From: Phycisphaerales bacterium
GTDB taxonomy: Bacteria > Planctomycetota > Phycisphaerae > Phycisphaerales > UBA1924
Assembly: GCA_023382935.1 (NCBI GenBank)
Contig: JAHDXL010000004.1
Location: forward strand, 1 to 64,000
Direction: 5' to 3'
DNA: 64,000 nucleotides
In this document: piece after piece, positions 59,447 through 64,000 of the stretch
Layout: each line of letters begins with the position of its first letter
Position numbering within the stretch: position 1 is the stretch's first letter
The notes under the pieces: generated by a model
Database searches by the model: none
The model's input: only the letters and a program-made list of their open reading frames with translations
Told to the model about the DNA's origin: nothing
Made by a program: the position numbers and the translations under genes

Positions 59447-60283
59447 TCAGTTCCGGGGGTTGTTGATCCACCCGAACCGCCCGAGCGAGGCCGAATACAC
59501 GCGCTTGTACCGCTGGGCGTGCACCCAGACGTAGATGTCGTTGGCCACCCAGTCCGTGCCTTCCTGCAGCGGCTCGTCGTTGTTCTTCGCGTGCGGCACG
59601 AAGCGTTCCACCGAGCCGTCCACGAACCCGAAGTACCCCCCGCGATCGTGCCGGTTGGTGATCTGGTCGAGATTGCCCCACCGCCCGTCGAAGATCAGCC
59701 CGTTGTACCAGTATGAACTCTCCTCGGCGAAGATCGGGATCGAACGGAACGGCGTCAGCCACTCGGCCGCCTGCTCTTCGGTCAGCGAGACCGGGCTGGT
59801 CCCGCCGTCGTACTTCTCGACCCGGTCGATGTAGTACACGATGGTCTGGGCGGCCAGCGAGGCGCCCTGCGTGCCCTCCACCATGCAGTAGTCAAAGTCC
59901 AGCGCCACCGTGCCGTCGGCGAAAATCTGCGCCCCGTCGGTGCGCCCGTACGGATTCTGCCTCTTGTTCTTGGGACACTCGGAAATCTCGTCCAACTGCT
60001 CCACGTAATCGTACAGGTGCCCCGGGTACACCCAGTTGGTGCTGTCGACCCGCCGGGCCCACTCCGTGGTCGTCCAGAACTTCGACTGGTTGTCCTGGGC
60101 GTACAGGATGCCCGCCAGCGTGATCTGCTTCATGTGGTGCGAGCACATCACCGACTGGGCCGTCTCCCTGGCTCCCCGCAGCGCGGGGAGCAGAATCGAG
60201 ATGAGCAGCGCGATGATCGCAATGACCACCAGCAACTCGATCAGCGTAAATGCACGCCCAGCGCCCGACGATCGCCTCAGCAT
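59447..60283 (-). CDS. prepilin-type protein with H-X9-DG motif
   Basis: A 278-residue protein of the DUF1559-like planctomycetal family. The prepilin leader [11 protein letters not shown]^FTLIELLVV and a hydrophobic helix are followed by a soluble domain. His212 and Asp222-Gly223 ([12 protein letters not shown]) make an exact H-X9-DG motif. The residue before the cleavage site is Ala instead of the usual Gly. Such proteins are exported, cleaved by prepilin peptidase and probably displayed outside the inner membrane. Function of the soluble domain is unknown. Confidence 0.88.
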
Positions 60284-60322
60284 CGTCCAAACCCCCTTCG
60301 CCCGGAGCCATCACGACCAACC

Positions 60323-60359
60323 GCAACTGTAACAGTTCCCGCCGGGAAATGAAAGTTGC
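60323..60359. promoter_or_regulatory. nested inverted repeats between divergent genes
   Basis: GCAACT (60323-60328) pairs with AGTTGC (60354-60359). Inside, AACTGT-A-ACAGTT (60325-60337) is a perfect palindrome with one spacer base, and TTCCC-GCC-GGGAA (60336-60348) is a second. The cluster lies 40-76 bases upstream of the prepilin start and may be an operator. A TACAGT -10-like hexamer on the minus strand overlaps it. Confidence 0.3.
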
Positions 60360-60429
60360 AGGTCCGGTTCTGGGCCCCGAAATCGCGTTTCCGGGCGGTC
60401 GTTCGCCCTCCGCCTACCATCGCCCCGGC

Positions 60430-61602
60430 ATGAGTCCGCCCGACTGCCCCATCCTCGACCCGCTGGGCATGACCCTCGACCAGTTCCGCCTCGCCGCAGC
60501 CGGCCTCGGCCTTGGTCCTCACCAGGCTCTGCACGCCTACCGCCGCATCTTCCGCGAGAACCGCCCCGCCACCACCGCCGGCCGCCTCTGGGCGCAGGCC
60601 AACCCCGGCCCCATCGTCCACGCCCTCGAGGAACAGACTCCCGAAGGCCCCACCGTCAAGTTCCTCCAGCAGGTCAGCGGCGTGCAATCCGGCACCCTTT
60701 CCACCCGCCCCGGCTTCGACACTCTCACCGTCGAATCGGTGCTCATCCCCATGATCGGACGCTTGGGGAAGCGCTCGTACACCCTCTGCTTGTCCAGCCA
60801 GGTCGGGTGCGCCATGGGCTGCACCTTCTGCGAAACGGCCCAGATGGGGCTGATCCGCAGCCTCACAGCCGCCGAGATCGTCGCCCAGTGGTTCGCCGCC
60901 ACCCACCTGCTCGACCACGCCGAGGCACGCGACATCCGCAACCTCGTCTTCATGGGCATGGGCGAGCCGATGGACAACCTCGACGCCGTGCTCCAAGCCA
61001 TCCGCGTCCTGTGCGATTCCAACGGCCCGGCCCTGGGGGCCAGCAATATCACCATCTCCACCGTCGGGCGCATCGACGGCATTCGTCGCCTGGCCGAGTT
61101 CACCCGCGAACTGGGCTTTCACCGCCTCGGGCTGGCCATCAGCATCAACGCCCCCAACGACCACATCCGCTCGCAGATCATGCCCATCAACCGCTCCAGC
61201 CCGATGGCCGAACTCCGCGACGCGCTGCTCGCCTATCCGATGCGCTCGGGCGGCAAGTTCTGTTTCGAGTACGTCCTCATCCCCGGCGTCAACGACGGGC
61301 CGGAGCACGCGCGCCAACTGGCCGACTACCTGGCCCCCTTCGGCAAGTGGACCCGCGACACGCTGCCGCTGGGCGTGCTCAACCTGATCCCCTACAACCC
61401 GCGCCACCGCTCGCCCTGGCCTGCCCCCACCGAGGAAAGTGTCGAGTCCTTCCTCGCTCACCTGGTCGAACTGGGCGTCTACGCCAAGCGCCGTCGCACC
61501 AAGGGCCGGCAGATGATGGGCGCCTGCGGGCAACTGGGGGCCCGGCACATTCGCTCGCGCCGCGTGGTCGAACCCACCTCGGACGGCGCCCCTATCCGCT
61601 GA
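60430..61602 (+). CDS. rlmN: radical SAM RNA methyltransferase, RlmN family
   Basis: A 390-residue RlmN-type enzyme that methylates C2 of A2503 in 23S rRNA (and A37 of some tRNAs). It shows the radical SAM cluster C127-x3-C131-x2-C134 (GCAMGCTFCE), the mechanistic cysteines Cys120 (LCLSSQ) and Cys366 (GACGQL) at the expected distances, and GMGEPMDN. The closing PGVNDGPEHARQLADYLAPF segment is typical. Length is normal. It is divergent from the prepilin gene and 31 bases from the LysA-like gene, which may be co-transcribed. Confidence 0.93.
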   Translation: MSPPDCPILDPLGMTLDQFRLAAAGLGLGPHQALHAYRRIFRENRPATTAGRLWAQANPGPIVHALEEQTPEGPTVKFLQQVSGVQSGTLSTRPGFDTLTVESVLIPMIGRLGKRSYTLCLSSQVGCAMGCTFCETAQMGLIRSLTAAEIVAQWFAATHLLDHAEARDIRNLVFMGMGEPMDNLDAVLQAIRVLCDSNGPALGASNITISTVGRIDGIRRLAEFTRELGFHRLGLAISINAPNDHIRSQIMPINRSSPMAELRDALLAYPMRSGGKFCFEYVLIPGVNDGPEHARQLADYLAPFGKWTRDTLPLGVLNLIPYNPRHRSPWPAPTEESVESFLAHLVELGVYAKRRRTKGRQMMGACGQLGARHIRSRRVVEPTSDGAPIR

Positions 61603-61633
61603 TTGCGGTACATTGCTTCACGGGAGGCCGACG

Positions 61634-62887
61634 GTGGACCTGGTCGAACGCGACGGATTCCTGCACGTCGGCTCGCTGCGCCTGGCCGATCTGGTCGATC
61701 GCGTCGGCACCCCCTTCGTCCTCTACGATGCCGACGCCATCATCGAGCGCTTCTACCGCTTCGTCGAGGCCTTTGCCTCCCTTCGCGCCATGATCTGCTT
61801 CGGCGTCGATGCCTGCCCCAACGCCCACATCATGCGCCGACTGGTCAAGCGCGGCGCCGCCCTGCGCGTCCGGTCGGCCACCGATCTCGAGCGTGCCTGG
61901 ATCTGCGGGGCTCCCATCAGCCGCGTGATCTACTCCGGGCTGGGCAAGACCGACATGGACATCCGCGCCGCCCTCGACGGGCTCTACAGCCCTCTGTTCC
62001 AGGCTGGACGCCTCGTCGACGGAAAACCCCCCTACTACCGAGGGCCGGTCGGATACTTCAGCATCGAATCCGGCGCCGAACTCGAACAGATCGCCCGCAT
62101 CGCCGGCGGCGTGCGCATCGCCTGCCGGGCCCTCATCCACGTCTGCCTCGACTGCTGCCAGCAGAGCCCCCTTGGCGTCTCACCCGCGGAAGCCATCGAC
62201 CTCTTCGAACGCTTCGGCAATGAGCCCCGCGTGCGTCTGGCCGGGTTGCGCATCCATCTCGGCGCGCTCGGCTTCTCGCCCGACGCCATGCGCGCCGGCG
62301 CCCAGCGCCTCTGCGAAATCGCCCAGGCGCTCCTCGACCGCGGCGTCAGCCTCGAAGCCCTCGACATCGGCGGCGGCTTCGGCTGCGATCTCTTCGATCC
62401 GGCCGCGCCCTCGCCTGAAACCTACGCCCGCGCCGTCGAACCGGTGCTGTCGCCTTGGGTCGAACGCGGGCTGAAGATCATCGCCGAGCCCGGATGGTCC
62501 ATCATCGGCGCGGGAAGTCTGCTGGTCACGCGGGTGCTGTCCAGCCGAGCCTGCGAGCACGGGCGCCTCGCGGCCGCCGAAGCCGTCCCCGGCGAACCCA
62601 CCGCCGCGCTCGCCCCCGCCCGCCTGCTCACCCCCACTCCGCCGCGCCCCGGCGGCATCAGCACCGTCGCCGGCGTCGACCACTCCTCCCGCTGCGTTCA
62701 GGTACCCATCACTTGCCAGCCCAGTGACCTGCTCGCCTTCCCCGGAGGCGGCGCCTATGCGCGGCGCGACAACCCCGCATGCGCCGAGATCCTGCTCGAA
62801 CAATCGCGCGTCTTCGTCATCCGCCCGCGCACCACACCGCTCGAGGCCATCGAGCCTGAACTCGAATCGCACGAGGTTCTCCTGTGA
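61634..62887 (+). CDS. LysA-like PLP-barrel protein lacking the catalytic lysine
   Basis: A 417-residue protein with the diaminopimelate decarboxylase fold. The line-up is visible: the usual YAVKANPN is FGVDACPN here, so the PLP lysine is Asp59 (codon 61808-61810). IHLG (207-210), GGGFG (246-250), EPGWSI (285-290) and GAY with Tyr375 in the C-terminal barrel remain. The CESxD active-site box is lost (VAGVDHSSR instead). So PLP and substrate chemistry are unlikely. The GTG at 61634 follows GGGAGG by six bases. It may be a regulatory or binding pseudoenzyme. No other lysine gene is adjacent. Confidence 0.8.
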   Translation: MDLVERDGFLHVGSLRLADLVDRVGTPFVLYDADAIIERFYRFVEAFASLRAMICFGVDACPNAHIMRRLVKRGAALRVRSATDLERAWICGAPISRVIYSGLGKTDMDIRAALDGLYSPLFQAGRLVDGKPPYYRGPVGYFSIESGAELEQIARIAGGVRIACRALIHVCLDCCQQSPLGVSPAEAIDLFERFGNEPRVRLAGLRIHLGALGFSPDAMRAGAQRLCEIAQALLDRGVSLEALDIGGGFGCDLFDPAAPSPETYARAVEPVLSPWVERGLKIIAEPGWSIIGAGSLLVTRVLSSRACEHGRLAAAEAVPGEPTAALAPARLLTPTPPRPGGISTVAGVDHSSRCVQVPITCQPSDLLAFPGGGAYARRDNPACAEILLEQSRVFVIRPRTTPLEAIEPELESHEVLL

Positions 62888-64000
62888 GCCATCGCCGCCG
62901 GTGGACCCGACTGGTCCTGCCCGCCTACATCCTGCTTCTCCTTGCCTCGCACCTAGTCCAGCGGCTGGGCAGCCCGGCGGAGACACTCCCTTCCGCCCCG
63001 GCCGACGCCACCTTCATCGACATCCCGGTGCCGCACGCCACCGGACCAGATCCCGTTCGCACCATCCGCCTGGCCTTCATCGATCGCGGTCCGGTCTCCA
63101 GCCCGCTTCCGCCCATCATCCTCCTGCACGGCTCGCCCGGACAAGCCTCCGACTTCCTCTTCAGACGCCATCCCGAAACGCCGAGTTTCCTCGACCACCT
63201 CGGCACCCATCAGCGCCGCGTCCTGGCCGTCGACCTGCCCGGCTTCGGCCGCTCGCAGACCTGGATCCCCGATTACTCCTCGCGCGCCGCCGCCCGCGCG
63301 CTCGTCTCGCTGCTCGACGCGCTTGACCTCGATCGCGCCCACTTCGTCTGCTGGTCCAACTCCGGAGCCGTCGGAATCAACCTGGCCGACCTCGCACCCG
63401 ATCGCATGGCTTCGCTCACGCTTCTGGCCGCGATCGGCGCTCAACAGACCGAGGGCTCGGGCAGTTACTGGTTCGAACACGCCAAGTATCTCGTCGGCCT
63501 GCCTCTGGCGGTCGGGCTGCCCGAACTGCTACCCCACTTCGGACTGCTCGGCTCGACCGGGCAGCGCCATGCCTTCATCCGCAGTTTTCTCGACAACGAC
63601 CAGCGCCCGCTCTCGGGCATCATGGCCCACACCCGCGTGCCCACGCTCATCCTGCACGGACGCCACGACTTCCTCATCGCCGACTGGGCTGCCGAGTATC
63701 ACCACCACATCATGCCCAGCAGCCGCCTGGTCATGCTCGATGCCAGCCACTTCCTCCCGTTCTTCCAGCCGCAGGAATCGGCCAGTTTCATCCTCGCCCA
63801 CGCGCAGCGCCACGACACGCCCGGCGTCCAGCCGCTCACCGACTCTGAGAACCTCGCCCCGCGCGTCGAGCGCGCCGGACCGGCACGCTGGATCGACTAC
63901 CTCGGTTCACACCTGCGCCGCTGGGGGCCGATCACCCAGATCCTCCTCATCCTCCTCCTGGCGCGCTGGAAGCCCGAGTCGGCCACCCTGCTGGCCGCCC
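62884..64000 (+). CDS. alpha/beta hydrolase with membrane anchor and C-terminal membrane part (cut at window end)
   Basis: At least 372 residues, running off the right edge. An N-terminal transmembrane helix (LVLPAYILLLLASHLV) is followed by an alpha/beta hydrolase: LLHGSPG (oxyanion), DLPGFGRS, nucleophile Ser158 in a variant elbow CWSNSG instead of GxSxG, LHGRHDFLI (acid) and DASHFLP (His). The last visible residues (WGPITQILLILLLARWKPESATLLAA) are a new hydrophobic segment that may start a DedA/VTT-like domain. Start is GTG at 62884, overlapping the LysA-like stop by three bases (GTGA), so the genes are coupled. Confidence 0.78.
   Translation, partial: MSHRRRWTRLVLPAYILLLLASHLVQRLGSPAETLPSAPADATFIDIPVPHATGPDPVRTIRLAFIDRGPVSSPLPPIILLHGSPGQASDFLFRRHPETPSFLDHLGTHQRRVLAVDLPGFGRSQTWIPDYSSRAAARALVSLLDALDLDRAHFVCWSNSGAVGINLADLAPDRMASLTLLAAIGAQQTEGSGSYWFEHAKYLVGLPLAVGLPELLPHFGLLGSTGQRHAFIRSFLDNDQRPLSGIMAHTRVPTLILHGRHDFLIADWAAEYHHHIMPSSRLVMLDASHFLPFFQPQESASFILAHAQRHDTPGVQPLTDSENLAPRVERAGPARWIDYLGSHLRRWGPITQILLILLLARWKPESATLLAA

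Follow-up and report, generated by a model that had tools for sequence, protein, structure and literature searches.

The gene at 61634..62887 (+) of the window, i.e. the complete stretch of 64,000 nucleotides that was analysed, encodes a protein of 417 aa that we consider with high confidence to be a catalytically dead pseudoenzyme derived from diaminopimelate decarboxylase (LysA). To the further reading, for which we argue by analogy, that it would bind the enzyme encoded directly downstream and serve as its regulator or scaffold, we give an even chance.

Family assignment of the gene product

The coding sequence starts at GTG 61634, which is preceded at a distance of 6 bases by a Shine-Dalgarno-like GGGAGG (61622..61627, +; read from the sequence); an alternative start is found at TTG 61613 (ORF 61613..62887). 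Upstream and on the same strand lies an rlmN-like ORF (60250..61602), which ends 31 bases 5' of the GTG, has its true start within the ORF and scores 238.6 bits against TIGR00048, under the cut-off of 290. The product of the gene under study matches the barrel domain PF02784 (91.9 bits versus a cut-off of 23.4), stays far under the curated cut-off of the LysA model TIGR01048 (122.9 versus 297.9 bits) and reaches 58.1 bits against TIGR03099 (cut-off 478.45). For the C-terminal sheet domain PF00278 the window protein gave no match at E ≤ 1, and the homologs of the relatives G023 and G056 are over the cut-off; the structure model runs nearly end to end with LysA. We place the window protein in the fold type III superfamily and outside LysA. 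The structure model, which was made from six sequences (mean pLDDT 77.5, pTM 0.81), had LysA structures as its best matches: 2p3e by Foldseek, with Z scores of 38.9 to 4xg1 and 38.8 to 2p3e; BtrK was matched with a Z score of 35.3.

Erosion of the active site

The catalytic motifs were compared in 69 aligned rows, of which 8 come from the pseudoenzyme clade and 61 do not. The sequence-only reading had placed an aspartate of the motif FGVDACPN (Asp59; codon GAT at 61808..61810, +) at the position of the Schiff-base lysine and had called the CESxD-type box degenerate, and the alignment bears out both statements. The Lys column holds Asp59 in the window protein and Lys in 59 of the 59 readable rows among the 61 others (G199 is masked there and G192c is without the N-terminal part). 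Within the clade the column is occupied by D in the window's genome (G000), E in G001, D in G002, A in G026, D in G142, K in G023 and Q in both G056 and G192. The Schiff-base Lys is thus absent from seven of the eight members, G023 being the exception, and the Asp is not conserved among the orthologs either; this variation indicates no role for Asp59 as such. A CES-type motif was found in none of the eight clade proteins, the window protein having VDHSSR at its position (62675..62692, +), whereas the 61 other rows have the CES-type motif. In the H-x-G-S motif the Ser has been lost in all eight (Ala211 in the window protein; Ser in 61/61 other rows), and the Arg of the EPGR motif, which is Trp288 in the EPGW of the window protein (residues 285-288; 62486..62497, +) and Arg in 61/61 other rows, is gone in six, while the remaining two are without the Glu of that motif. 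This Ser and this Arg are expected to help hold the cofactor or substrate. In G023, where the Lys is still present, the CESxD box is missing, as are the Arg of EPGR and the Ser of H-x-G-S. Because the Schiff-base Lys is missing, internal-aldimine catalysis at this site is excluded for seven of the eight members, as judged from the alignment.

Two elements are present in 8/8 clade members: Gly246-Gly248 of the glycine-rich loop (62369..62377, +), to which we ascribe the role of a phosphate loop, and His208 (62255..62257, +). Of the motifs listed earlier as retained, EPGWSI falls, since its Arg has become Trp288; Tyr375 is present in the window protein but is substituted in three of the seven clade members that are readable there (in G142 it is perhaps merely displaced by one position).

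Two trivial explanations for the missing lysine were rejected. A correct alignment might have put another lysine, that of the SGLGK segment, at the Schiff-base position; this residue (Lys105) falls in a separate column that is also Lys in 60 of the 61 other rows, and since the intact enzymes have it in addition to their catalytic Lys, it is no stand-in for the missing one. A sequencing or assembly error, or a local mutation in a family that otherwise keeps the Lys, does not fit either: G002, whose protein is 86% identical, has the same Asp, six further homologs are without the box, and the Lys is gone from seven of the eight members.

The retained elements leave room for readings in which the barrel still handles small molecules. 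One of these, which we regard as unlikely, is that the pseudoenzyme serves in small-molecule sensing, its barrel holding PLP non-covalently or another phosphate ligand and signalling to the operon. The conservation of the glycine triplet and His208 in 8/8 speaks for such a sensor, as does the pyridoxamine-phosphate-oxidase-like gene that adjoins the downstream partner gene in the window's genome, but the H-x-G-S Ser and the EPGR Arg are lost and the oxidase gene adjoins the partner also where there is no pseudoenzyme (G053, G057, G151). The LysA-like fold of the model (4xg1 at Z 38.9), the retained loop and His208 would also suit an enzyme whose chemistry has changed so as to need no lysine, or in which another residue has taken over; a newly formed active site would be expected to show conservation, however, whereas the Lys column varies (D/E/A/K/Q) and the CESxD region is unconserved among the members, which makes this reading very improbable.

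Phylogenetic distribution

The search for homologs covered 163 genomes of the window's own family, and all eight members were recovered from it: G000, G001, G002, G026, G142, G023, G056 (contig 145) and G192 (contig 36). In a tree of 66 of the 69 aligned rows, drawn without G199, G178 and G192c, they group as a single clade (support 100/99), which is divided into the subgroups {G023, G056, G192} and {G142, G026, G001, G000, G002}. A search of 397 genomes of the class, drawn evenly and including neither G001, G023, G056 nor G192, recovered G000, G002, G026 and G142 with at least 468 bits; the next matches scored 360 bits or less and no further clade members were found among these 397. The intact LysA proteins fall into two groups (I and II), split on a weak branch (57/94), and with midpoint rooting the dead clade stands on the group II side; the tree contains one very long branch (G168), and the partial LysA of G185 was left out of all analyses.

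Barring a regain in G023, this tree calls for two or more losses of the Lys, which we take as the probable course. Since none of the eight members has the CESxD box or the H-x-G-S Ser, these two elements probably disappeared before the Lys did.

Selection pressure and a newly constrained stretch

Pairwise dN/dS values of the pseudoenzyme, calculated with our own Nei-Gojobori script, were 0.14 (G000/G002), 0.27 (G000/G001), 0.31 (G002/G001), 0.25 (G000/G026) and 0.20 (G056/G192). For comparison, the neighbouring genes gave the following values for G000/G002: 0.18 for the partner, 0.12 for the rlmN-like gene, 0.11 for asnS and 0.06 for both the PNPOx-like gene and dnaB. No in-frame stops were found in the eight homologs (in G192 some bases close to the end are masked). 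The gene could have been a decaying lysA remnant, left behind after the diaminopimelate route was lost, and lysA loss at this locus is indeed common, as 10 of the 20 partner loci examined have the rlmN-like gene followed directly by the partner. Against decay stand the intact frame in eight genomes, the dN/dS range of 0.14-0.31, an invariant stretch within the protein and a deep divergence throughout which the barrel was kept; a dN/dS of 0.14 is not that of a decaying gene, and on this ground we rejected the explanation, to which we give hardly any chance. The sequence-only reading that the fold is selected and not decayed is thereby upheld, now for a clade of eight members.

Conservation among the eight homologs is highest at residues 106-135, within the segment 106-140 (TDMDIRAALDGLYSPLFQAGRLVDGKPPYYRGPVG; 61949..62053, +): the per-column conservation in the clade is 0.91 at 106-120 and 0.85 at 121-135, as compared to 0.40 to 0.75 for the other blocks. 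Nine residues (R23, R111, Y118, F122, Q123, G125, G130, P132 and Y134) do not change within the clade, while the 51 intact rows vary at these positions or lack them; eight of these nine fall within 111-134. By the conservation peak and these clade-specific invariants, the constraint has moved to this stretch from the active site. An insert is also found at this position in some intact relatives, where most of its residues differ. Residues 111-140 were poorly modelled (pLDDT 54-70, with 54-65 for 121-140) and a surface patch could therefore not be shown there.

The position of the stretch invites a comparison with eukaryotic decarboxylases. In several chains of ornithine decarboxylase, residue 130 or 131 (chain numbering) is the counterpart of residue 141 or 142 of the window protein in the alignment, and PMC3170320 puts the putative antizyme-binding site of ornithine decarboxylase at 117-140. 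The newly constrained stretch would then lie in approximately the same chain region as that putative site, which we present as a resemblance.

Lysine synthesis in the host

The window's genome is 95.4% complete, and its relatives are draft genomes, so that the absences reported for them are provisional. Two PF02784 proteins were recovered from the window's genome: the pseudoenzyme and the arginine decarboxylase SpeA (728.3 bits versus a cut-off of 624.1). An intact second lysA, for which the sequence-only reading had advised to look, was not found in this 95.4% complete genome, and neither were DapB and DapF. Present in one cluster (contig C1, about 330.3-334.6 kb; L162:8283-12609) and all over their curated cut-offs are lysW (58.1 versus 53.2 bits), lysX (324.5 versus 275.6) and lysK (402.2 versus 363). 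From the presence of these three genes and the missing DapB and DapF it follows that lysine is probably made via the LysW/alpha-aminoadipate route. Lysine synthesis by the window protein itself was rejected on the same findings. A search for papers on LysW in planctomycetes recovered none that, by its title, deals with lysine synthesis.

Throughout the 163 family genomes DapB was found in 32, DapF in 74 and LysX over its cut-off in 88. The eight clade genomes had DapB in 0/8, DapF in 0/8 and LysX in 6/8 (not in G001 and G023). For the genomes with an intact LysA the counts were 25/29 (DapB), 26/29 (DapF) and 2/29 (LysX) in group I and 0/21, 3/21 and 12/21, respectively, in group II, where the second copy of G192 as well as G178 and G199 were placed by similarity and not by the tree, and where the Fisher tests on the co-occurrence ignore relatedness. 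The group II LysA-like proteins, which occur in genomes where no DapB was found, may decarboxylate another substrate.

Several LysA-like genes were recorded in passing. Those of G019, G046, G109, G134, G202 and others (L074, L075, L131, L129, L076) have kept the catalytic motifs and belong to the genomes without a DapB (0/21) and mostly without a DapF (3/21) among the findings, so that they too may act on another substrate. A scan of viral contigs yielded four LysA relatives, two of which (L154 and L155) were added to the structure alignment; L154 (IMG/VR contig, 1001-2224) encodes a LysA-like protein that shares 38% identity with an intact LysA of a planctomycete and has kept the Lys.

LysA-type enzymes are dimers in which the active sites are shared between the subunits, and the dead protein might accordingly pair with a competent decarboxylase and activate it in the manner of a prozyme. 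The window's genome offers no LysA to pair with, its other PF02784 protein being SpeA only, and among the eight genomes a second LysA-like gene was found only in G056 and G192; in the latter (L073, contig 17) the N-terminal part is missing from the stretch read, with the Lys region in none of the upstream forward frames that were read. Pairing with another LysA of the host was rejected, as none was found. Dead paralogs are known to activate enzymes elsewhere (PMC3663545, PMC10211241), and still a prozyme-like subunit seems to us extremely unlikely here.

Genomic context

The gene that follows the pseudoenzyme on the same strand encodes, in 8/8 genomes, a membrane protein of about 820 aa. In the window this partner gene occupies 62884..64000 (+) and continues beyond it, its 818 aa product ending at about contig position 65340; its start overlaps the stop of the pseudoenzyme by 4 bases, an overlap that recurs in G001, G002 and G142. 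The partner contains an alpha/beta hydrolase domain (68 bits in G000 and 85.9 bits in G056; cut-off 25.8) with S158, D262 and H289 invariant in 7/7, presumably the hydrolase triad, an N-terminal hydrophobic segment in 7/7 and, at about 330 to 470, several others. The profile of its C-terminal domain matches the ATP-grasp part of cyanophycin synthetase (E 1.4e-7), and K575, R581, E760 and N762, which we take to be ATP-grasp residues, are invariant in 7/7; single-domain Pfam scans gave weak matches (best RimK, E 0.0026, in 6/7 members), and a model of this domain from two sequences had a mean pLDDT of 40. The coupling to a membrane hydrolase that the sequence-only reading had proposed is thus supported as far as adjacency goes, but the description of the partner was too narrow, since the protein also has the several hydrophobic segments and the ATP-grasp-like domain.

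The fusion of hydrolase, hydrophobic segments and ATP-grasp-like domain (window 62884-64000; L066:7885-10341) is common across the family and occurs in part of the order, too.

Partner matches were obtained in 153 of the 163 family genomes, weak and partial matches counted, and many of these genomes are without the pseudoenzyme, so the partner is independent of it. The rlmN-like gene directly precedes the pseudoenzyme in 6/8 genomes (not in G023 and G056). Gene calls in the neighbourhoods were made with a crude script of our own, and tblastn served to check where, and on which strand, the rlmN-like, asnS, LysA-like and partner genes lie. The partner gene was found in none of 14 other LysA neighbourhoods. 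Four more were picked because their contig held both a LysA and the partner; in these an intact LysA stands directly 5' of the partner in G121 and directly after the rlmN-like gene in G006, and in G031 it lies two genes before the rlmN-like gene. In 10 of 20 partner neighbourhoods, that of G031 among them, the partner directly follows the rlmN-like gene with no LysA between them. The occurrence of LysA in or near the locus in intact relatives indicates that the linkage of pseudoenzyme and partner is partly inherited synteny. In a partner tree of 28 rows, made by a quick method and with two label changes, the eight genomes fall into the same two subgroups, yet not into one clade; pseudoenzyme and partner were probably inherited as a pair.

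The intact LysA of G121 (L106, contig 188), with its Lys and CESxD-type box, is the sole case among the 18 other LysA neighbourhoods in which such a gene adjoins the partner.

Relation to known systems

The window protein resembles the LysA family (TIGR01048) in fold, overall sequence, glycine loop and His208, and differs from it in its score under the cut-off, in its four missing elements (Schiff-base Lys, CESxD, Arg of EPGR, Ser of H-x-G-S), and in a host where the DapB and DapF of the diaminopimelate pathway were not found. LysA-like proteins that function outside lysine biosynthesis are represented by BtrK and the exosortase-associated decarboxylase (TIGR03099). The genes of this type stand near ligases or hydrolases; unlike the window protein, BtrK and the TIGR03099 proteins keep their catalytic residues.

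An antizyme-like protein reportedly acts on the bacterial lysine decarboxylase of Selenomonas ruminantium. The eukaryotic antizyme inhibitor is, according to PMC3170320, without enzyme activity and acts by protein binding. As befits a pseudoenzyme of this type, the window protein is related to a decarboxylase, has lost catalytic residues and evolves under purifying selection, and a similar chain region is concerned; the antizyme inhibitor binds antizyme beside an active ornithine decarboxylase, whereas the candidate partner here is a membrane enzyme, and it protects an active close homolog, where the window's genome has SpeA only. The prozymes, i.e. a dead deoxyhypusine synthase paralog (PMC3663545) and a dead AdoMet decarboxylase homolog (PMC10211241), are likewise catalytically dead paralogs with a function, but they pair with an active paralog, for which, apart from SpeA, no candidate was found in the window's genome.

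Proposed role and implications

In the preferred reading, the constraint on the active site would have ended when lysine was no longer made from diaminopimelate, while a protein-binding surface around residues 106-140 would have been kept or gained. The pseudoenzyme would then bind a protein partner, most likely the adjoining membrane hydrolase/ATP-grasp enzyme, which it may tether, assemble or regulate; the retained glycine loop and His208 could accommodate a phosphate-bearing ligand, bound non-covalently, as sensor input. A more specific version, which we put forward tentatively and hold to be rather doubtful, is that of a bacterial counterpart of the antizyme inhibitor: following the switch to LysW-type synthesis, the dead barrel might dock via the region of the antizyme site of ornithine decarboxylase and so control its partner.

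Fold type III decarboxylase pseudoenzymes are already known in eukaryotes, as antizyme inhibitors; a bacterial one derived from LysA was not recovered by our searches of an open-access library. The finding also draws attention to the widespread membrane fusion of hydrolase and ATP-grasp-like domains, for which no function was found. In the clade, the absence of the diaminopimelate route provides a metabolic context that could have freed LysA, and its members would illustrate how an enzyme of core metabolism passes into a non-catalytic role, some having gone further than others: G023 has kept the Lys, which the rest have lost.
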